Shown in pieces: positions 16,590 through 27,757 of a stretch of DNA of 64,000 bases. Position 1 is the stretch's first letter. Every line of letters begins with the position of its first letter. The stretch comes from Mongoliibacter sp. Lineage in GTDB: Bacteria > Bacteroidota > Bacteroidia > Cytophagales > Cyclobacteriaceae. Location: assembly GCF_007692705.1 (NCBI RefSeq), contig NZ_REBN01000128.1:1-64000 (forward strand), written 5' to 3'. Under the pieces are notes generated by a model that saw nothing but the letters and a program-made list of their open reading frames with translations, was not told the DNA's origin and searched no databases. A program made the translations under genes and the position numbers.

Positions 16590-17126
16590 ATGGCCTTCGA
16601 ATATATCAAAGCCCTTCATATCATTTTTGTAATCACCTGGTTTGCAGGACTATTTTATATAGTCAGGCTATTCATCTATCAAACAGAAGCCTTAGAAAAA
16701 CCGGAAAATGAGCGAAAAGTCCTCGTGCCCCAATTTAAGCTCATGGCCAATCGATTATGGATGATTATCACTTGGCCATCTGCCATCCTTACCTTGATCT
16801 TTGGCTTTTGGGTGCTCTATTACCGATCGGGATATTTGCAGCTAGGCTTCATGCAGGCCAAACTCGGATTTGTGTTATTCCTTTATGTTTATCATTTGAT
16901 CTGCCACAAAATCTACAAAGATTTGCAAAATGGCATCACAAAATGGACCTCAACTCAGTTAAGAGTTTGGAATGAAGTTGCAACTATTTTACTGTTTGCA
17001 ATTGTTTTCCTAATAGTACTAAAAAGTCTTATCAGTGTCGTTTGGGGAATCGTTGGTCTAGTAGGACTTGGTATTCTAATGATGCTAGGTATCAAATGGT
17101 ACAAAAAAGTAAGAGAAAAACAATAA
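16590..17126 (+). CDS. hemJ: HemJ/CopD-like membrane protein (protoporphyrinogen oxidase HemJ family)
   Basis: KALHIIFVITWFAGLFYIVRLFIYQTEA, WPSAILTLIFGFWVL, YHLICHKIYKDL; four TM helices. Confidence 0.88.
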   Translation: MAFEYIKALHIIFVITWFAGLFYIVRLFIYQTEALEKPENERKVLVPQFKLMANRLWMIITWPSAILTLIFGFWVLYYRSGYLQLGFMQAKLGFVLFLYVYHLICHKIYKDLQNGITKWTSTQLRVWNEVATILLFAIVFLIVLKSLISVVWGIVGLVGLGILMMLGIKWYKKVREKQ

Positions 17127-17141
17127 TAATTTATTTAAAAA

Positions 17142-17816
17142 ATGAAAAACAGCAGAATATACGTCTATTCAGTTTTAATATTTTCGATTCTTATGAGTAG
17201 CTGTGAATCAGGAAATTCCGAAAAGGAAAGTGACCGGAATAAAACACTTCCTATTCTTGGAAACTCACATGTCAATGAATTTGAAATGGAAGGTAAGGTT
17301 GTCCAAGATACGGTATATCACAAGATCGGGCAGTTTAAGTTTATCAATCAGGAGGGAAGAGAAATCACTAATTCCTCTACTGATGGCAAAGTGTATATTG
17401 CTGATTTCTTTTTCACTACCTGTCCTACCATCTGTCCTGTCATGAAAACCCAAATGCTACGGGTTTACGAAAAGTTCGATAACGAACCGGACTTTATGAT
17501 TTTAAGTCATACGCTGGACCCAGAGCATGATACTTCGGAACTACTAAAAGATTATGCCGCCAAAATCGGTGTAGAAAATGACAATACTTGGCACTTTCTC
17601 ACAGGGGATCAAGAAAAAATATTTGAAATCGGACAGACAAGTTACCTGACAACTGCCATGTCAGACCAAACTGAACCAGGGGGGATTCTTCACTCAGGAG
17701 CATTTGTTCTTGTAGATCAGAAAGGGAGGATAAGAGGCGTTTATGACGGCACGAAAGAAGATCAAGTCAACAGGCTGATGAAGGATATCCCTAAATTACT
17801 CCCATCGAATGAGTAA
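17142..17816 (+). CDS. SCO1/SenC-family copper chaperone-like lipoprotein
   Basis: YIADFFFTTCPTICPVMKTQM (CxxxC copper motif) and conserved HSGAFVLVDQKGRIRG. Confidence 0.95.
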   Translation: MKNSRIYVYSVLIFSILMSSCESGNSEKESDRNKTLPILGNSHVNEFEMEGKVVQDTVYHKIGQFKFINQEGREITNSSTDGKVYIADFFFTTCPTICPVMKTQMLRVYEKFDNEPDFMILSHTLDPEHDTSELLKDYAAKIGVENDNTWHFLTGDQEKIFEIGQTSYLTTAMSDQTEPGGILHSGAFVLVDQKGRIRGVYDGTKEDQVNRLMKDIPKLLPSNE

Positions 17817-18261
17817 GAATTTAGCCTATTATTTCTATATAGTGGTATTGAGCGGATTATTTTCCTGCCAATCCGGTACCAAAAAGGATGAAAACACCCT
17901 TGCTTCTATCAAAGACAGTAAGGTACTTCAGTATGCCATTGAAGGCAAAGTGCTTTATGAGAGTTATTGTGCCAATTGCCATCAAAAGGATGGGACTGGT
18001 TTAGGAAAACTTATTCCTCCCCTAAACCCATCCGACTATATGAAAGAAGATATCGGCAGAACAGCCCATATCATCAAATACGGACAAAAAGGCGAAATAA
18101 TGGTAAATGGTGTTGTCTATGATCAAGTAATGCCGTCAAACCCAAGACTTACCAATATGGAAATCGCTCAGATCATGACTTATATATACAATATTTGGGG
18201 GAACAAAGAGGGGCTTATCGATGCCAATACTGTTGGCGGTTATTTGGAAAAAAACGATTAG
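17809..18261 (+). CDS. c-type cytochrome lipoprotein
   Basis: Lipobox LFSC; YCANCHQKDGTGLGKLIPPL haem motif; 8-bp overlap with the SCO1 gene. Confidence 0.92.
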   Translation: MSKNLAYYFYIVVLSGLFSCQSGTKKDENTLASIKDSKVLQYAIEGKVLYESYCANCHQKDGTGLGKLIPPLNPSDYMKEDIGRTAHIIKYGQKGEIMVNGVVYDQVMPSNPRLTNMEIAQIMTYIYNIWGNKEGLIDANTVGGYLEKND

Positions 18262-18692
18262 CCTTTTGCATCCAAAATCACCTTTGCTTCATTCATGGTA
18301 GCTTTAATATCTGCATTAACTTTTTGAACTTTTTCTTTTTGATCCAGCAAATACTCTCTATACTCTTTTTCGGACATATCTTCAGAACCGGGTTTGTATT
18401 GACGCATCCAAACGAACATGCCATCAAAAGCTTGATCCATTCTTTCTGCCAATGATTCCAACTTCCCTATCAATTCTGCATGCATCACTGAATCTTCCTG
18501 ATACAAGGTTTCAGAAACTGCTAAAATGTTTTTTTTCAAGGTTTTAAGTTCTCCCATCTTAGGCATTACCTCATCATGAATGGCTATTACCTCATCTTTT
18601 AGCTCTTCATTACTTTCATTTTGTGTGCCACAAGAAAGTAAAATAATTGTAACATAAATAATACAGCTTACACTGCTAAAAATGTTTTTCAT
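18258..18692 (-). CDS. small lipoprotein, coiled-coil, unknown function
   Basis: MKNIFSSVSCIIYVTIILLSCG lipobox, helical acidic body. Confidence 0.7.
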   Translation of the reverse strand: MKNIFSSVSCIIYVTIILLSCGTQNESNEELKDEVIAIHDEVMPKMGELKTLKKNILAVSETLYQEDSVMHAELIGKLESLAERMDQAFDGMFVWMRQYKPGSEDMSEKEYREYLLDQKEKVQKVNADIKATMNEAKVILDAKG

Positions 18693-18921
18693 AATTAAAT
18701 GGTTAGACATTCGTAATGTAGTACATATTTTATAAAACCCACAATTTATTTACAAATACTTTATAGGGATAAATTTAATCCATTTTTTAATTGTAATAAT
18801 TATTATTTTAAATTTTTTATTCCAAAACCTGAGATTTATTCTCTTTTTAAAATAAATCTCTTCTACCTGACATGAATAGGAAGCGATTTCTTATTTTTAA
18901 AATGTTAATCAAAAGAATTAT

Positions 18922-19746
18922 ATGAAACAGTATTGTTTTGCCCAAGATCAGATCACCTCGTCTGAAAAAGCCAGTATACACCCCATGGATATAGGACTGA
19001 TAAGAGGGTACGGAATTTTTGATTTTTTCAGAACATCAAACTACAAACCTCTCTTTCTGGGTGACTATCTGGATAGATTCATTCGCTCAGCAGAAAAAAC
19101 TTACTTGACTTTAAATTACTCTAAAACGGAATTGGAGCATATCATACTTGATTTGATAGAAAAAAATGATTTATCTGACGGAGGAATCAGAATGCTGCTT
19201 TCAGGAGGTGTTTCAGAAAACCATTTTTCACCAACGGATGGGAGCTTATTCATCTTCAACGAAGACTTAGACTTCCCCTCAAAAGAGAAGTATGAAAATG
19301 GTATCAAGCTATTGCCTGTAGAACATGTCCGTTATATTGCTGATATCAAGACTACCAACTATGCATTTCCTGTCTGGCACAGTAAAATATGGAAAGAACA
19401 AGGTGCCGAAGATGTATTATACCATATGAATGGTTATGTTTCAGAAAGTTCCCGGTCTAATATTTTCTTGGTAAAAGATGGAGAACTTGCAACTCCAGAC
19501 AAGGATATATTACATGGAATCACTAGAAAAAGAGTACTCGAATTGGCTGGGAAGGTATCAATCAGACCAATTTTGTACGATGAATTCTTAAATGCTGATG
19601 AAGCTTTCATCACCTCGACCACCAAGAAAGTCTTGCCTGTTACTCAAATTGGAGTCCATAAAATCGGGGATGGTAAGGTCGGAGAAAAAACTAAGGACCT
19701 TATAAGAAAGTTTGCTGAAATGGAACAAAAAAGCTCTCAAAAATGA
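18922..19746 (+). CDS. aminotransferase class IV (BCAT/D-amino-acid aminotransferase-like)
   Basis: IGLIRGYGIFDFFRT, Lys in KTTNYAFPVWHSKIWKEQGAEDVLY, SRSNIFLV. Confidence 0.93.
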   Translation: MKQYCFAQDQITSSEKASIHPMDIGLIRGYGIFDFFRTSNYKPLFLGDYLDRFIRSAEKTYLTLNYSKTELEHIILDLIEKNDLSDGGIRMLLSGGVSENHFSPTDGSLFIFNEDLDFPSKEKYENGIKLLPVEHVRYIADIKTTNYAFPVWHSKIWKEQGAEDVLYHMNGYVSESSRSNIFLVKDGELATPDKDILHGITRKRVLELAGKVSIRPILYDEFLNADEAFITSTTKKVLPVTQIGVHKIGDGKVGEKTKDLIRKFAEMEQKSSQK

Positions 19747-19758: not shown

Positions 19759-20226
19759 TCAGTTAAGCAATTCCGCATTTTTAAGAATATACATCAATTT
19801 TTCGGGGTCGGAATCATTCAAGGTAAGCGTACCTCGTACTTTGACTCTTTTTGATGTGTATTTGATCGGGTTTTTCATCAAGACCTCCATTACGGTTTCA
19901 GGCCCGCCCGAACCACAGAAAAAACATTCCGCCAATGGCAAGGAAGATAATATAATATGTTCAGGCTTAAACATACCTTCAAATGGTATGATATATCCAT
20001 CAGCCTCCACAGTTTTGCCTTCAAGTCCTTTGATATTGTCACCAAACACAGGGATGTACAATTCTCCAAATTCGTCCTGACCGATTTTGTAAGTTACTTC
20101 TGAAAGATCTCTCCAAACATTATTTGATGACTGGGCATAACTTACACCTACTGCCAAAATCAATAGCGTGGATAGAAATATTCTTTTCAATATCATATTA
20201 ATATACTTTTTGATGGTTGATTTCAT
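19759..20226 (-). CDS. DUF3299-like secreted protein with CxxCG motif
   Basis: Signal peptide; ADGYIIPFEGMFKPEHIILSSLPLAECFFCGSGGPETVMEV; last gene of ABC operon. Confidence 0.75.
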   Translation of the reverse strand: MKSTIKKYINMILKRIFLSTLLILAVGVSYAQSSNNVWRDLSEVTYKIGQDEFGELYIPVFGDNIKGLEGKTVEADGYIIPFEGMFKPEHIILSSLPLAECFFCGSGGPETVMEVLMKNPIKYTSKRVKVRGTLTLNDSDPEKLMYILKNAELLN

Positions 20227-20229
20227 TCA

Positions 20230-21456
20230 TTAAGATTTTGTAAGTTGTTTAGCAATATCTGTTTGGTACGCAGTCCAAGCAGGAATAAGAGATGCCAAAA
20301 TACCTACTACAACTGCATATCCCAAAATATACAATTCTTCTATCAAGAATACAGACGCACTTAAGCTGCTGATGGCACCTTGTTCGTTAAGGTTAACGAT
20401 AATACTTAGGAAAAGGTGCCCCATTGCCATACCGACCAAGGCTCCTAGGAATGTCAGAATCACTCCTTCCAGAATAATATGTAGAAAAAGCTGACCACTT
20501 GAGGCCCCGAGAGTTCTCATGACTGCCAAGTCATATTTCCGTTCCTTAAGAGAGTTGAAAAGCGCTATAAAAATACTGAGACCTGCAATCACTATAATGA
20601 CCAAAGCCAGTCCCTGAATAAGCTTCACACCTATCCCCAAAAGTTCAAAAAGCCTGGAGATCTCAAAAGATGGAGAAGCTGCCTGTAAATTAGTCCTGCT
20701 GTTGATCATTCGTGGAAGTTGCACAGCTGCCATTGGGTTCCTGTATTGGATGAGTAAGGAAGTCAGTTCTCTATCCTCGTCTCCAGGATCAGGAAATCCT
20801 GAAGTAGCTACTGAAGCCTCAAACTTTTCATGATCATGCTCATCATCATGGGTATACCAAACTGACTCAATGCTAGTCAATACCAGTTTGTCCAAAACAT
20901 TATTCATAGGCTCAAGAATACCTGTAACCAAATAAGGGTGCTCATCATGTTCGTGACTACTACTGCCAATCCCATGGGAACCGATAAAGTTATCCCCCAC
21001 TTTTAAATCAAGCTTTGCTGCAACTTCATTTCCCAAAACCACATCAAATGGTTTTTCCCATCTTTTCCCTTCTAGTAAACCTGCATCATATAAGTCAAGG
21101 TAATCGTAATTTGTCCCTACTATCCTGTAACCTTGGTAATTGTCTCCCATTCCCAATGGAATGATATTTTTGACAAGCCTATTCCTAGTCAATGCAGTAG
21201 CATCCTCGAGGTCAATATTTCCTGTAGGAAAATCAATATGGTACACACTCGACAAGATAAGTTGAAGGGGACTTCCCTTCGCACCAACGACAAGATCAAT
21301 ACCTTGAGAATCCTTTGTCATCTTGTTTTCAAACTGATCTTGGATAAGAATCAGAACCGTAATGATAGCCAATCCAAGCGCCAACAATAAGATATTCAAT
21401 CCAGTATTCAGTGGCTTGGCTATCAGATATTTCCAACTTAATTTCAACATGTTCAT
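20230..21456 (-). CDS. FtsX/MacB-type ABC transporter permease with His-rich periplasmic loop
   Basis: Four TM helices in FtsX layout (N-terminal TM; LALVIIVIAGLSIFIALFNSLKERKYDLAVMRTLGAS); SHEHDEHPY and THDDEHDHEKF in the large loop. Confidence 0.92.
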   Translation of the reverse strand: MNMLKLSWKYLIAKPLNTGLNILLLALGLAIITVLILIQDQFENKMTKDSQGIDLVVGAKGSPLQLILSSVYHIDFPTGNIDLEDATALTRNRLVKNIIPLGMGDNYQGYRIVGTNYDYLDLYDAGLLEGKRWEKPFDVVLGNEVAAKLDLKVGDNFIGSHGIGSSSHEHDEHPYLVTGILEPMNNVLDKLVLTSIESVWYTHDDEHDHEKFEASVATSGFPDPGDEDRELTSLLIQYRNPMAAVQLPRMINSRTNLQAASPSFEISRLFELLGIGVKLIQGLALVIIVIAGLSIFIALFNSLKERKYDLAVMRTLGASSGQLFLHIILEGVILTFLGALVGMAMGHLFLSIIVNLNEQGAISSLSASVFLIEELYILGYAVVVGILASLIPAWTAYQTDIAKQLTKS

Positions 21457-22085
21457 ACTAAACCTCCCATCGTTATTTGATTAGAAATATGATCCTTGAC
21501 ACGTTGATCATGGGTGACTATCACCAATGCCGCATTGAATTTCTCGGCCTGTTCCTTTAAAAGTTTTACGACATTCTCTGCATTTACATCATCCAGGCTT
21601 GCCGTAGGTTCATCCGCGAGAATTACCTTAGGTCCATTTGCCAATGCCCTTGCGATGGAGACCCTCTGGGCTTCACCTTCTGAAAGAGTAGTGACCTTAG
21701 AATGCTTTTTATCGAAAATACCCAGCTCTTTTAAGATGCTGTCAATCTTATTCCCCTCTTTCCCTGAAAAATAATTAGCCAACTTGAGGTTTTCTTCCAC
21801 TGTCAACGGAGAAAGAATATGAGGTTTTTGAAAAATGATACCGATGTTTTTCCCCCTAAACTTATCCAAGCTGGCTCCTGAGAGTGAATACAAGGAAGTT
21901 CCATCAATAGTGATTTCCCCTTTGAGAGGCTTCAATAGCCCACCTAGCATATTCAAAACTGTGGTTTTGCCACTACCGGATGCTCCTATAATAAGCAATT
22001 GCTCTCCGGGAGAGAGACTGATATCCGGTATATTGAATTTTTGCTTTTCCTGATAGTAGAATTCCAGATTTTTTGCTTCAAGCAT
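21453..22085 (-). CDS. LolD/MacB-type ABC transporter ATP-binding protein
   Basis: IIGASGSGKTTVLNMLGG, LSEGEAQRVSIARAL, VILADEPTASLD. Confidence 0.97.
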   Translation of the reverse strand: MLEAKNLEFYYQEKQKFNIPDISLSPGEQLLIIGASGSGKTTVLNMLGGLLKPLKGEITIDGTSLYSLSGASLDKFRGKNIGIIFQKPHILSPLTVEENLKLANYFSGKEGNKIDSILKELGIFDKKHSKVTTLSEGEAQRVSIARALANGPKVILADEPTASLDDVNAENVVKLLKEQAEKFNAALVIVTHDQRVKDHISNQITMGGLV

Positions 22086-22087
22086 AT

Positions 22088-23266
22088 CTATTTTTTTATT
22101 GGTATGGAGACGCGAAAGGTAGTGCCTTTTCCCGGCTTACTTTCAAACGTAATTTCACCATTCAAAACGTCTATACATTTTTTTACTATTGACAAACCCA
22201 AACCCGAGCCTTCAATGATTCCAACGTTTTTAGCCCTGAAAAAGCGCTCAAACAATTGGTCATGCTCTTTCTCGGGAATTCCTATTCCATGGTCACGGAT
22301 TATGCCTGTGAGTATTCCGCCTTCTTCTGAAACTTCAAAGTCTACTTCCTGACCGTCTTTGGAATATTTCACAGCATTGGAAAGTAAGTTTTCATAGATC
22401 TGATAGAGGAGATCATGGTCAGAAACGATTGTTTTAGGAAGCTTACCTATCTTAAGATTGATTTTAACATCATTTTCACTTCCCGCTTTGACTACATCCA
22501 ACACTTCATTGAACATTGCCATCAAAAACATTTTATGCGGCTTGTAATCAATCTTATTGGCATCAGCTTTACCGAAAAACAAAACAGAAGTCAGGAGGCT
22601 ATTCAAACTGCGGACTGAGTTCTCAATCTTATCTGCATGCTTTACAATCTTGGCTTTGAAAGGATGCTCCATCTCAGCATATTTCTGCAATAACTGGGCG
22701 GAACTGAGTATTGAAGTCAGAGGGGTTTTGAATCCATGAGATACATTCAAGACTATCCTTGATTTCAACTCACCGATTTCTCTTTCCTTTTCCAAAGCCC
22801 TGGTCAGCTCCTTATTGGCCTCAGCCAAATCAGCAGTTCTTTGTTTAACTTTTTCTTCAAGCTCATTATTGAGTTTTTGGAGTTCTTTTTCCTTGCGATC
22901 TTTGAAAATTGCCAACTCAATAACCATATTCAACTCCCTGATATTAAAAGGCTTGATCACATATGCTGATGGGTTGGTTCCCACAACTTTAGACAGGGTT
23001 TCTGCATCCGAACTGGCGCTGAGATAAACGACCGGAATATCATATTTCTCATTGATAATTTCTGTAGTACGGATTCCATCAAGTTCTCCGGCCAAATTGA
23101 TATCCATCATCACAATATCTGCGGTATTTTCTTCCAGAATTTCCAAGGCTCTTTCCCCAGAATCTGAAATACCAATTATTTGATGATTATTTTTTTCTAG
23201 TGCTTTTTTGAGTAAAAGCGCGGAGACATGGTCATCTTCCGTGATCAATATCCTTAATGGGAACAT
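22088..23266 (-). CDS. response regulator receiver-histidine kinase fusion (REC-HisKA-HATPase)
   Basis: REC (ILITEDDHVSALLL...MMDINLAGELDG...KPF), H-box NVSHGFKTPLTSIL, HATPase (NAVKYSKDGQ, GLGLSIVKKCID). Confidence 0.95.
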   Translation of the reverse strand: MFPLRILITEDDHVSALLLKKALEKNNHQIIGISDSGERALEILEENTADIVMMDINLAGELDGIRTTEIINEKYDIPVVYLSASSDAETLSKVVGTNPSAYVIKPFNIRELNMVIELAIFKDRKEKELQKLNNELEEKVKQRTADLAEANKELTRALEKEREIGELKSRIVLNVSHGFKTPLTSILSSAQLLQKYAEMEHPFKAKIVKHADKIENSVRSLNSLLTSVLFFGKADANKIDYKPHKMFLMAMFNEVLDVVKAGSENDVKINLKIGKLPKTIVSDHDLLYQIYENLLSNAVKYSKDGQEVDFEVSEEGGILTGIIRDHGIGIPEKEHDQLFERFFRAKNVGIIEGSGLGLSIVKKCIDVLNGEITFESKPGKGTTFRVSIPIKK

Positions 23267-23318
23267 ATTTGTTGTCAATAATAAAGTGCAAATTACTAGA
23301 TTAATCCAATATCAAAAA

Positions 23319-26300
23319 TCAATTTGAGCCGAGTGGCAGCAAAACTGTAATACAGGTTCCCTTGCCTTTTTGACTGTCAATGGTAATATCTCCCTTCAAC
23401 AGAGTAATCAGGTTTTTGGTGATTACCAATCCCAAACCCGACCCCTCATAAGCTCTTCCATACCCACTGCTTTCTTGCTCAAATGGAGTGAATATCTTAG
23501 TCAGGAATTGATCACTGATCCCCACTCCTTCATCTTGAACTTGGAAGTACAATTGACCATCTGTTTCCTTCAAAAGAACTTTAATCATCCCCTTCTCTGA
23601 GTATTTGATGGCATTGCCTACCAAGTTATTGACTATCATTTCAAAATACCTTTGATCGATAGCACCTTCAAATGGTTGTGTTTCGTACTTCACCCTGAGC
23701 AATAACCCTTTTTTCAATGCTAGAGATTTTAATGGAACCATCACCTTACTCAGAAAGTCATTGATATTAGTATCTTTAAAAACCACATCCATTTTATTAG
23801 CTTCTATTTTGGAAAGGTCAAGGATACTATTGATGGTTTCAAGAAGTCTTTCACCTGATTCTCTGATGATTTCCAGCTGGTTTGCCAATGCCTCGTCCTC
23901 CTTTCTTTCCATGATGATATTTTCAGCAGTACCCAAAATTCCATTTAAAGGAGTCCTGATTTCATGACTCATATTGGCTAAAAAACTGGATTTAACCCTA
24001 TTGGACTCCTCAGCCTTTTCTTTGGCCTCTTTTAGGCTACGTTCATATTCCTTTTTAGAAGTAATATCTCTGAATACGCTTAGAAATACTTTTTTCCCTT
24101 CTGCATTTGAGTTAAGATTTGTAATATAAAATTCCACATCTTTTAAGCCTGACTTAAAAGGCATCTTCATATCAGCCTTCACCACTTTCCCTCCTGACTG
24201 TTGCAGCATTTCCAGCAATAAAGTTCGTTGGTCATAATAATAATCCGGGTCGGTAAAAAAGTCTGAAATAGTTGGGTCTTTAACAAGGGAAATATCCAAA
24301 CCAGCCAATGAAGTCATAGAAGGGTTTGCAAACATAACCCTACCGCCTTCTACAGAGATTACCAACCCATCCTGAGAACTGTTCCACACATTTCTAAACT
24401 GGTCTTCAGTCACTTTAGCCTCTTCTGTTTTTTCATCAATCTTTTTCTTGAGCACACCCTGTTTTTTCAATTGACTCAATAAAGTACTGAGTAAGAATCC
24501 TATTCCCAGAAATCCCACTAAGACCAAAATCACAAACCAAGTCTGGAGATACATCGGCTTGCGGATTATAAATTTCTCTGACACCACCTCTTCAGACATC
24601 TCCAGACCTCTTAATCCCGCTTTCAGGTGCAGTTGATATTCTCCTGGAGGTAAATTGTTGAAATATAGCGTATTCTCTCTAGGGTTAATGAGTTCTACCC
24701 AGTCTTCATGGTAACCTTCAAGCCTGTATGATATCACAAGGTCTGAAACTTGTAAAAAAGAAACGGCATCATAAGCTATGCGGATAGAATTCTCTATGTA
24801 TGGAATCCTGTCCAACTCGAAAGTTTTTTCAGGTGAATTGACAAGGTTGATCTCACCCAGATTTACCATAGGCTTATAGTCCCATCTCAAATCATCATCG
24901 GGATTATAAATAGACATCCCTCTTTGTGTGCCGATATAAATCTTTCCATCATAGCCCTCTTTGAATGCACCACGATTGATTTCTGATCCGGATAGCCCAC
25001 TCCGCTCATCAAAGATTCTCAAGGTTTTGCCATCAAACTTATAGGCCCCTTTGTCTGTACCTATCCAAATGTTATCCCTGGAATCCTTAAGTAAGGCATA
25101 AATAGGTCTTTTGATTTGCTGACCATTGATTTCCCAAAAGTCAAATTCCCCATTTTTCCACAGCTTCAAGCCTTCTTCTGTGCCAAATAAAATTGAATCC
25201 TGAAGATCCAAAAAATCAAAACCGACTACAGTGACCATGCTATCATCTTCATATAGCCCATCTTTAAGAAAATTGCTACCTCCTTGCATATACACCATCC
25301 TTCCATCGCCAAGCTTATCTACTTTCCTGAAATATGCTTCCTTCTGATTTAACTTGTCGAGAAAAATTTGTGTAACATCATTTTCAAAATGGCTTTCAGA
25401 TTGATTGTGAATCGAAGAAAGATAAACCCTGTCTCTACTGACAACAAACAAAGAGTCTCCTGCAGCTGAAACTGCAGTAACAAATTTATCCAAAGGACTA
25501 GGTGTAAAATTTAACTTATTCCTTTTGTGGTCATATCTTCCTAAACCTTCAAGGTTGGACGAAAACCAAATTATGCCATTTTTATCTTTGGAAAAATTAG
25601 TAATCCTATTTCTAGGCTGCCCAACCATACTTTGGTCTTCCATTAGGGTATTGACAGTCCCTTGAGAAAAAATCTGCAATCCATTATTGAAACCTAATAA
25701 AAGTTTATCAGGCTCCAATTCATAAATAGCCGTTACCTCATCATCCAATAAAGGATTGAACTTGAAATTCTGAAACCTCAAAGATTTAATATTCAAGACT
25801 CCTCTATGAGAGCCTAACCATATAATATCCTCTCTATCTACGTAGGAATTGTAAATATTGTAAGATTTCAATTCATCAAAAGCATCTATTTCAATGATGC
25901 TTCCTTTGTCAAGGTCAAGCTTGTACAGATGAGAGTTATAATGAAAAAACACAATCCCATTTATTACCTGCAAACCACTATAGTCCAATAAACTATACGT
26001 ATTACGGACAAATCCTGAATGGTGAATTTCATCTGGCCTATCTATTTCAGGACCTGAGGCCAAAAAATCTTTTCCTAAGAAAAAATACCTGTCTCTGTAT
26101 GCATCATATTCAATATGACTTATACTTTCGGGAAGAGATATACCATTAAATCCAAATTCAGATATTTGCTCTTTATCGAATAAAAGTGTTCTGTTTTTGA
26201 ATAAAAGCAAAAATGAATCACCATAAGCCTGAACTGATTGAAAATTCCCAAGTTCATTTATTGGAATCCTGTGGTGAGACCAATCCTCACTGTCAAAGAT

Positions 26301-26747
26301 TGTGAGATGTGTATTTGACTGTAGAAAAATGGCCCGATTTTCACCTTGCCCACTAATTAATAATTTATGTTGGATCTCAGGAGAGCCAGTTTGGACCTCT
26401 TTAGGAAACTCAAACTCATGCCAATCCTTATAGTCCCAATAAAATGCTTTGACTTTTCCAATTTGATTATAAACCCACATTTTGCCGTCACCGTCTTTGA
26501 GTAAACCTACTTTGAAAGAAAGTTGATCTATGATATGATCAGGCAATGCATGCGTAAAAAAACCATCTGAATAGTATACTCCTTGAGCGGAGTTGAACCA
26601 CATTTTCCCTTCATCATCCTGGAGAATTTCAAAAACATTATCAGAAGGGAGGTCCAGCCCCCTGATATACCTATTGAATTGGAATACCTGAGCATGTCCG
26701 ATTTGAAAAATCAAAAGCGCATATAAAAGGAGAATCGGTTTCTTCAT
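23319..26747 (-). CDS. two-component-regulator-propeller sensor histidine kinase with Y_Y_Y and PAS domains
   Basis: Repeated propeller motifs (FEILQDDEGKMWFNSAQGVYY, LLKDSRDNIWIGTDKGAYKFDG), Y_Y_Y domain, TM, PAS, H-box ANMSHEIRTPLNGIL, HATPase; no C-terminal REC or AraC domain. Confidence 0.95.
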   Translation of the reverse strand: MKKPILLLYALLIFQIGHAQVFQFNRYIRGLDLPSDNVFEILQDDEGKMWFNSAQGVYYSDGFFTHALPDHIIDQLSFKVGLLKDGDGKMWVYNQIGKVKAFYWDYKDWHEFEFPKEVQTGSPEIQHKLLISGQGENRAIFLQSNTHLTIFDSEDWSHHRIPINELGNFQSVQAYGDSFLLLFKNRTLLFDKEQISEFGFNGISLPESISHIEYDAYRDRYFFLGKDFLASGPEIDRPDEIHHSGFVRNTYSLLDYSGLQVINGIVFFHYNSHLYKLDLDKGSIIEIDAFDELKSYNIYNSYVDREDIIWLGSHRGVLNIKSLRFQNFKFNPLLDDEVTAIYELEPDKLLLGFNNGLQIFSQGTVNTLMEDQSMVGQPRNRITNFSKDKNGIIWFSSNLEGLGRYDHKRNKLNFTPSPLDKFVTAVSAAGDSLFVVSRDRVYLSSIHNQSESHFENDVTQIFLDKLNQKEAYFRKVDKLGDGRMVYMQGGSNFLKDGLYEDDSMVTVVGFDFLDLQDSILFGTEEGLKLWKNGEFDFWEINGQQIKRPIYALLKDSRDNIWIGTDKGAYKFDGKTLRIFDERSGLSGSEINRGAFKEGYDGKIYIGTQRGMSIYNPDDDLRWDYKPMVNLGEINLVNSPEKTFELDRIPYIENSIRIAYDAVSFLQVSDLVISYRLEGYHEDWVELINPRENTLYFNNLPPGEYQLHLKAGLRGLEMSEEVVSEKFIIRKPMYLQTWFVILVLVGFLGIGFLLSTLLSQLKKQGVLKKKIDEKTEEAKVTEDQFRNVWNSSQDGLVISVEGGRVMFANPSMTSLAGLDISLVKDPTISDFFTDPDYYYDQRTLLLEMLQQSGGKVVKADMKMPFKSGLKDVEFYITNLNSNAEGKKVFLSVFRDITSKKEYERSLKEAKEKAEESNRVKSSFLANMSHEIRTPLNGILGTAENIIMERKEDEALANQLEIIRESGERLLETINSILDLSKIEANKMDVVFKDTNINDFLSKVMVPLKSLALKKGLLLRVKYETQPFEGAIDQRYFEMIVNNLVGNAIKYSEKGMIKVLLKETDGQLYFQVQDEGVGISDQFLTKIFTPFEQESSGYGRAYEGSGLGLVITKNLITLLKGDITIDSQKGKGTCITVLLPLGSN

Positions 26748-26823
26748 GTGGTTATTTCCTGCCATCTAAATTAGAAAAAGATATGCACACTGTAAATTAA
26801 TTGGATATTGTTTACCATTTCTT

Positions 26824-26853
26824 TTTGTCTACGGGCTTAATCTTATATTTTTG
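26824..26853 (+). promoter_or_regulatory. putative Bacteroidota housekeeping promoter of sucD
   Basis: TTTG (26824-26827), 18-nt spacer, TATTTTTG (26846-26853, fits TAnnTTTG), 22 nt upstream of ATG 26876. Confidence 0.5.
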
Positions 26854-26875
26854 TTGAAACTTTAAAAATCAAAAC

Positions 26876-27757
26876 ATGAGTGTTTTAGTAAATAAGGATT
26901 CAAAAGTAATTGTGCAGGGCTTCACGGGATCTGAAGGTTCGTTCCATGCACAGCAGATGATAGAATACGGAACCAACGTCGTTGGTGGCGTTACTCCGGG
27001 TAAAGGTGGTTCTACTCACTTAGAAAGGCCGGTTTTCAACTCTGTGGAAGAGGCAGTAGAAAAAACAGGTGCCAATACTTCCATTATTTTTGTTCCGCCG
27101 GCATTTGCGGCAGACGCCATTATGGAAGCTTCAGATGCAGGAATCAAAGTAATCATTGCCATCACGGAAGGTATACCAGTGGCAGATATGATGAGAGCCA
27201 AGCCTTACATGAAAGAAAGAGGGGCGACACTAATAGGGCCTAACTGCCCAGGTGTAATCACTCCGGGAGAAGCTAAAGTAGGTATCATGCCAGGCTTTGT
27301 CTTCAAACAAGGGCGTGTTGGCATTGTCTCCAAATCAGGTACTTTGACTTACGAAGCTGCTGACCAGATCGCAAAAGCCGGATTAGGAGTTTCCACTGCC
27401 ATAGGTATTGGCGGCGACCCAATTATAGGTACTTCTACAAAAGATGCAGTACAATTGTTGATGGAGGATCCTGAAACTGACGCAATCGTCATGATCGGTG
27501 AAATAGGAGGAAACTATGAAGCTGAGGCTGCCAAGTGGATAAGAGAAAACGGTAACAAAAAACCTGTTGTTGGCTTTATCGCAGGACAAACTGCACCTCC
27601 AGGACGCAGGATGGGTCATGCCGGTGCAATTATCGGTGGTGCAGATGATACTGCAGCTGCCAAGATGCGTATCATGGCTGAAAATGGAATACACGTAGCT
27701 GAATCACCTGCAGAAATCGGAGCTGTAATGGCCAGAGTTTTGGGTGTGGAAGCATAA
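26876..27757 (+). CDS. sucD: succinyl-CoA synthetase alpha subunit
   Basis: [60 protein letters not shown]. Confidence 0.98.

Follow-up and report, generated by a model that had tools for sequence, protein, structure and literature searches.

An operon that places two histidine kinases ahead of an ABC transporter, and that encodes no DNA-binding response regulator in any of its five ORFs, raises the question of what the kinases do for the transporter. The locus lies in a window of 64,000 nucleotides, the whole stretch of DNA that was analysed (Mongoliibacter sp., contig NZ_REBN01000128.1, positions 1 to 64,000), in whose ORF listing five consecutive minus-strand ORFs occupy 19759-26765 (Table 1). 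A first-pass annotation, made from the letters alone, had described a five-gene minus-strand operon with short gaps and had suggested that the kinases may control or respond to the transporter. The ORF coordinates and junctions agree with such an operon: as annotated, the junctions measure, in gene order, 40 bp, 2 bp, a 4-bp overlap and 3 bp. Alignment with orthologues places the probable true starts of the propeller kinase, the REC-kinase and the CFFCG protein at Met7 (about 26747), Met5 (about 23266) and Met11 (about 20196), respectively; because of the last of these, the final gap is probably nearer 33 bp. The Pfam domains likewise bear out the propeller sensor kinase, the receiver-bearing kinase and the FtsX/LolD transporter that had been named, and the motifs SHEHDEHPY, THDDEHDHEKF and CFFCGSGG were each found in the translations.

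Table 1. Features of the operon and its flanks (positions of the window)
Feature	Position	Strand	Remarks
Propeller sensor kinase	23319..26765	-	1148 aa
REC-kinase	22088..23278	-	396 aa
REC-kinase H-box, His181-Gly182	22733..22738	-	Gly replaces the acidic residue, invariant in 113 orthologues
ABC ATPase, LolD/MacB type	21453..22085	-	210 aa
Split MacB/FtsX-type permease, His-rich periplasmic loop	20230..21456	-	408 aa
His-rich stretch of permease, residues 160-212	20821..20979	-	conserved His161, His170, His203
Secreted CFFCG protein, putative divergent DUF3299 (ZrgE/PA4066-like)	19759..20226	-	155 aa
Divergent intergenic region, operon vs sucD	26766..26875	.	well conserved in the clade, without Zur-type palindrome
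sucD (succinyl-CoA ligase, by sequence), conserved upstream flank	26876..27757	+	outside the system
Aminotransferase-like gene, conserved downstream flank, opposite strand	18922..19746	+	outside the system

At this operon, a LolD/MacB-type ATPase gene adjoins a MacB/FtsX-type permease gene. The ATPase matches ABC_tran in Pfam and scores below the LolD equivalog cut-off. The permease, for which a Pfam search had been proposed, matches MacB_PCD/FtsX, and its structural model matches MacB and LolC/E, with a weaker match to BceB. Among 98 permease homologues, the three histidines listed in Table 1 are kept in 97-98, and the loop region contains 11% His, compared with 3% overall; because of both observations, the His richness of the loop exceeds chance. 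The permease was present in 61 of 148 sampled genomes of the order. At these 61 loci, the ATPase gene was nearby, mostly adjacent, in 42, and a small secreted gene lay near the permease in about half. Permeases beside genuine DUF3299 genes of the phylum are homologous to the one in the operon, and their His-rich loops are of similar length or much longer, and equally or more His-rich. Extreme His/Asp/Glu-rich loops with long HDH and HEH runs occur in permease relatives at L085, L221, L223 and L225-L227.

The small protein has a signal peptide followed, in the structural model, by an OB fold, and its CxxC (Cys101, Cys104) is invariant across a 23-member alignment. The first-pass annotation had named DUF3299 partners of such transporters in general. 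For the small protein a DUF3299 match held at the family level but not for the operon protein alone: by itself, the latter falls below the Pfam DUF3299 threshold and gave no direct Pfam or NCBIfam identification, while the 23-member family alignment matches DUF3299 profiles with 98.6% probability (hhalign) and 13 of the 23 members match PF11736 individually. The assignment to DUF3299 is therefore made through the family alignment and its members. The best solved-structure match of the family was 4hsp, a hypothetical protein (E 0.017). Foldseek matches were weak and to generic OB folds, E never falling below 0.001; they support a fold and not a function. A second CFFCG/DUF3299-like gene of the same genome (C201:2476-3193, L286), with a near-perfect Zur-type palindrome upstream (see below), lies on its short contig away from any close permease homologue.

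Because of the DUF3299 family match, the homologous His-rich permeases and the MacB-type fold, the ATPase, the His-rich permease and the divergent DUF3299 OB-fold protein are, as judged from sequence, a core of the Zrg/PA4063-66 type; the tie to the Vibrio and Pseudomonas proteins runs through Pfam profiles and the DUF3299 loci of the phylum. The core corresponds to Vibrio ZrgC-B-E and Pseudomonas PA4064-4066, minus the ZrgA binding protein. Vibrio ZrgABCDE is a Zur-regulated zinc acquisition system (PMC9817125), which likewise combines an ABC ATPase, a His-rich permease and a DUF3299 protein in one operon with a metal context; here, in contrast, there is no Zur-type box, two kinases are added and the DUF3299 protein is divergent (CFFCG type). 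A complete ZrgABCDE system was rejected in favour of a Zrg-like core, since the ZrgA/PA4063 periplasmic metal-binding protein (PF10986) was not found in this genome; it scored above the cut-off in 0 of 119 family genomes, and ZrgD was not found for the operon either. In Pseudomonas aeruginosa, PA4063-PA4066, a split MacB with DUF3299, has been proposed to export a pyochelin-cobalt complex (PMC11481552). It resembles the present operon in its split MacB-type ATPase/permease and DUF3299-type protein, whereas here no PA4063-like protein was found and kinases are added.

The metal module proposed in the first-pass annotation was retained in part. Permease homology, metal-gene neighbours and, in some genera, a Zur-type box speak for it as regards the transporter/DUF3299 core, but the kinases carry no metal link; because most relatives have the core without kinases, the link belongs to the core. 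In other genera, neighbours of the core include MerC-like genes, CobW/COG0523 GTPases and a TonB receptor with a DUF4625-like protein, and Pfam matches confirmed the CobW, TonB and DUF4625 genes of this genome, as well as one MerC homologue. Genes for MerC-like membrane proteins recur beside the core across genera (L054, L058, L061, L100, L101, L108, L112 and others). In the kinase clade, such a gene often lies between the aminotransferase-like gene and a 150-aa gene; none was called there in the window.

A palindrome, TTGCAAC-N3-GTTGCAA, counted at >=12/14 matches (a level reached by 0.7% of random windows), precedes the core at 11 of 67 kinase-less loci, a test that is partly circular on the core because the palindrome was first picked from three core loci. 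Independent support comes from the same genome, where it occurs at 20 sites, compared with 3 for a reversed control, with zinc genes downstream: the sites include two CobW genes (one adjoining a FUR-family gene), a TonB receptor/DUF4625 operon, the second CFFCG gene and a ZIP/ApbE pair. We infer that this palindrome is a Zur box. On C267, the FUR-family gene, the probable Zur of this genome, and a CobW GTPase gene (L291:3043-4605) form a likely operon behind such a palindrome. Upstream of the five-gene operon the palindrome is absent, as it is at all 113 kinase-clade loci, and a zinc role in this clade is therefore indirect. Kinase-less loci of the same family carried the box in 2 of 16 cases and lacked it in 14 of 16; for this reason, the idea that the kinases replaced Zur control was dropped.

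As for the kinases themselves, the propeller kinase comprises a signal peptide, Reg_prop repeats, Y_Y_Y, one transmembrane segment (about residues 737-755), PAS, HisKA and HATPase, and its H-box (SHEIRTPLN) is normal. Bacteroidetes hybrid two-component systems unite a propeller/Y_Y_Y sensor with kinase, REC and HTH domains on a single polypeptide; compared with these, the propeller kinase has the sensor and the kinase, and its Pfam domains include neither REC nor HTH. The REC-kinase consists of an N-terminal receiver (Response_reg, acceptor Asp59), HisKA and HATPase, with no transmembrane segment. Its H-box fails the H-E/D-x-x-T/N motif, reading H-G-F-K-T: the acidic residue is missing and the phosphatase Thr is kept. 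In 113 of 113 REC-kinases the box reads SHGFKTP. Nearly every orthologue retains both the acceptor Asp of its receiver and intact ATP-site motifs.

Other HisKA proteins of this genome with a readable H-box have Glu or Asp at the same position, and SHEF[RK]TP was read in 14 of the 15 nearest REC-kinase relatives examined (the fifteenth gene was not recovered). The nearest relatives, REC-HisKA kinases from other Cytophagales that come with a REC-cNMP-HTH_Crp regulator, have the same domain order but a normal HEFRTP H-box and a linked regulator, and are not located at a transporter. In several relatives the regulator gene follows that of the kinase; the present genome contained no full-length match to such a regulator. 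In Myxococcus CrdS, the substitution E372G, which introduces the same residue at the same position, abolished kinase activity and left phosphatase activity; the acidic residue after the phospho-His is required for autophosphorylation, and the Thr/Asn four residues past the His is needed for phosphatase activity (PMC3510030). Loss of the acidic residue thus predicts, without proving, loss of kinase activity in the REC-kinase, which is probably a kinase-impaired, phosphatase-type protein. On the simplest reading, a captured REC-kinase would have lost its kinase function and its regulator and kept a phosphatase or phospho-sensing function. Caulobacter DivL, which has Tyr in place of the His and acts with DivK, a separate protein, differs from the REC-kinase, which retains its His, has lost the acidic residue next to it and carries its receiver on the same polypeptide. 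Shared with the REC-kinase is a kinase fold with an altered H-box; DivL is proposed to be a repurposed kinase that reads the phosphorylation state of a receiver domain (PMC4211667).

In the species collection, the REC-kinase, ATPase and permease genes occur together, with the REC-kinase gene beside the ATPase gene, in all 80 named loci (Algoriphagus, Belliella, Echinicola, Cyclobacterium, Indibacter, Lunatimonas and others), which represent one evolutionary event and are not independent. It is in this single Cyclobacteriaceae clade, which also includes Mongoliibacter, that kinases accompany the permease. By tblastn, the CFFCG gene was present in all 80 loci except one truncated contig. Within the family sample, a REC-kinase adjoins the permease whenever identity exceeds about 60%, and never below that level; in the 31 family genomes that have a close homologue, the REC-kinase gene stands beside the ATPase gene. 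The closest unlinked REC-kinase relatives were at most 44% identical; as the searches scored the best few candidate kinases per genome, absence elsewhere holds at that similarity only. Neighbourhood conservation, put forward earlier as a check, was borne out by co-conservation of the five genes across >20 genera. Most loci are flanked by sucD and the aminotransferase-like gene, and some keep the operon with different downstream neighbours.

The view of both kinases as partners needs correction in that they are not equal: the REC-kinase is obligate (80/80 loci), and the propeller kinase is missing in 10 of the 80 loci through two independent losses on the tree, the other genes being retained. 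The dN/dS of the REC-kinase is 0.01-0.05, and about 0.02-0.04 where the propeller kinase is gone. The REC-kinase is under strong purifying selection, also without the propeller kinase, and in general evolves more slowly than the other genes of the operon. By linkage it is the obligate partner of the transporter, and the propeller kinase an optional one.

To explain these observations, we favour, at roughly even confidence, a metal module in which a kinase-impaired REC-kinase, acting as phosphatase or phospho-sensor, has become a captured, obligate companion of the transporter. In the core, ATP-driven movement of the periplasmic permease domain would move a transition metal, or a chelate of one, or set it free, an activity most likely tied to zinc scarcity; the His loop and the CxxC protein would serve as periplasmic metal ligands. 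Against the zinc reading stand the missing Zur-type box, both here and in most kinase-less members of the family, and the pyochelin-cobalt export proposed for the homologous Pseudomonas transporter (PMC11481552). The transporter operon of a single Cyclobacteriaceae clade would have captured a REC-histidine kinase of the ordinary type, which would have lost both the response regulator it worked with and the acidic residue for autophosphorylation, and would have become an obligate companion of the transporter, most likely acting as a phosphatase or phospho-sensor. Its REC domain might be phosphorylated by the propeller kinase where present, and otherwise by another donor. The phosphatase output of HisKA on an unlinked response regulator would then depend on that phosphorylation state or on contact with the ATPase, whereby demand on the transporter would be reported or damped. 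The model builds on the observed gene content, homology, linkage, conserved Gly, two propeller-kinase losses and purifying selection; from these we infer the metal identity, the transport direction, the phosphatase activity, its partner and the contact with the transporter.

Conventional two-component control would instead have the propeller kinase phosphorylate REC and the REC-kinase, still active despite its Gly, relay the signal to an unlinked DNA-binding regulator with the transporter genes as one target. The spacing of the five genes, which suggests co-transcription, the intact acceptor Asp, phospho-His and ATP-site motifs of the REC-kinase and the normal H-box of the propeller kinase are all consistent with such a relay. 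However, the invariant Gly occupies the position at which E-to-G abolished CrdS kinase activity (PMC3510030), and the REC-kinase persists in two lineages in which the propeller kinase proved dispensable, so we consider this relay rather unlikely.

Alternatively, the REC-kinase might be a physical companion of the transporter in the manner of Bce modules, binding the ABC ATPase and reading or gating its cycling through the phosphorylation state of REC, so that its target would be the transporter and not expression. A REC-kinase gene unseparated from the ATPase gene in 80 loci, junctions near zero in this region in most of them, the slow evolution of the REC-kinase, a permease fold shared with BceB among others and the absence of a response regulator from the operon would all fit; the lack of a membrane segment, unlike in BceS, and a fold match to BceB weaker than that to MacB or LolC/E argue against it, and we regard it as unlikely. 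Bce modules (BceAB-S-R) also encode an FtsX-type ABC transporter with a histidine kinase, but in them BceS sits in the membrane, plays an active part and has a response regulator linked to it (PMC10314905). Here the kinase is soluble, has an impaired H-box and comes with no regulator, representing similar logic with different parts. The operon lacks the Bce-type arrangement, in which the transporter is encoded alongside a membrane-bound histidine kinase and a response regulator of OmpR type. An unlikely, more far-reaching reading is that a Gram-negative metal transporter of MacB fold has, as an integral component, an obligate kinase-dead REC-HisKA phosphatase that reads its activity with no need for a membrane sensor, as a convergent and inverted counterpart of Bce. 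Finally, mere neighbourhood inertia, by which kinases and transporter would share a locus and promoter in one clade without a functional link, would agree with the single clade, its mostly conserved flanks and non-independent loci, and the loss of the propeller kinase with the rest unchanged, but is improbable given the REC-kinase with the transporter in every locus examined, including those with a changed downstream flank, the tight junctions and the strong purifying selection.

Returning to the captured phosphatase-type companion, nothing relevant on a histidine kinase with DUF3299 was found in open-access papers, nor was an obligate, probably kinase-dead REC-kinase companion of a transporter found in that literature. 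The transporter itself is of a known kind. Transporters of the Zrg/PA4063-66 type are a little-understood part of zinc-starvation physiology, and their transport direction is disputed. The same core occurs in cultured Cyclobacteriaceae (Algoriphagus, Belliella, Echinicola, Cyclobacterium, Mongoliibacter), tied to a signalling protein that bears a natural version of the kinase-dead, phosphatase-competent mutation. Two questions thereby become directly testable, namely which stimulus elicits a response from these transporters and whether a histidine kinase, once captured, can work for a transporter with nothing but a phosphatase or phospho-sensing function. The operon would allow tests on a transporter that comes with an integrated signalling partner, probably of phosphatase type.

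Two further observations concern the downstream flank. UPF0093, SCO1/SenC and cytochrome c genes stand in a row at 16590-18261 (+), conserved in the clade and suggestive of a respiratory or copper-related neighbourhood. The 150-aa gene mentioned above (18258-18710, -) encodes a helical lipoprotein-like product of no Pfam family. In kinase-less sister genera (L038, L039, L126), it immediately follows the CFFCG gene in the same orientation, and it may be a former operon member, now split off by the aminotransferase-like gene.
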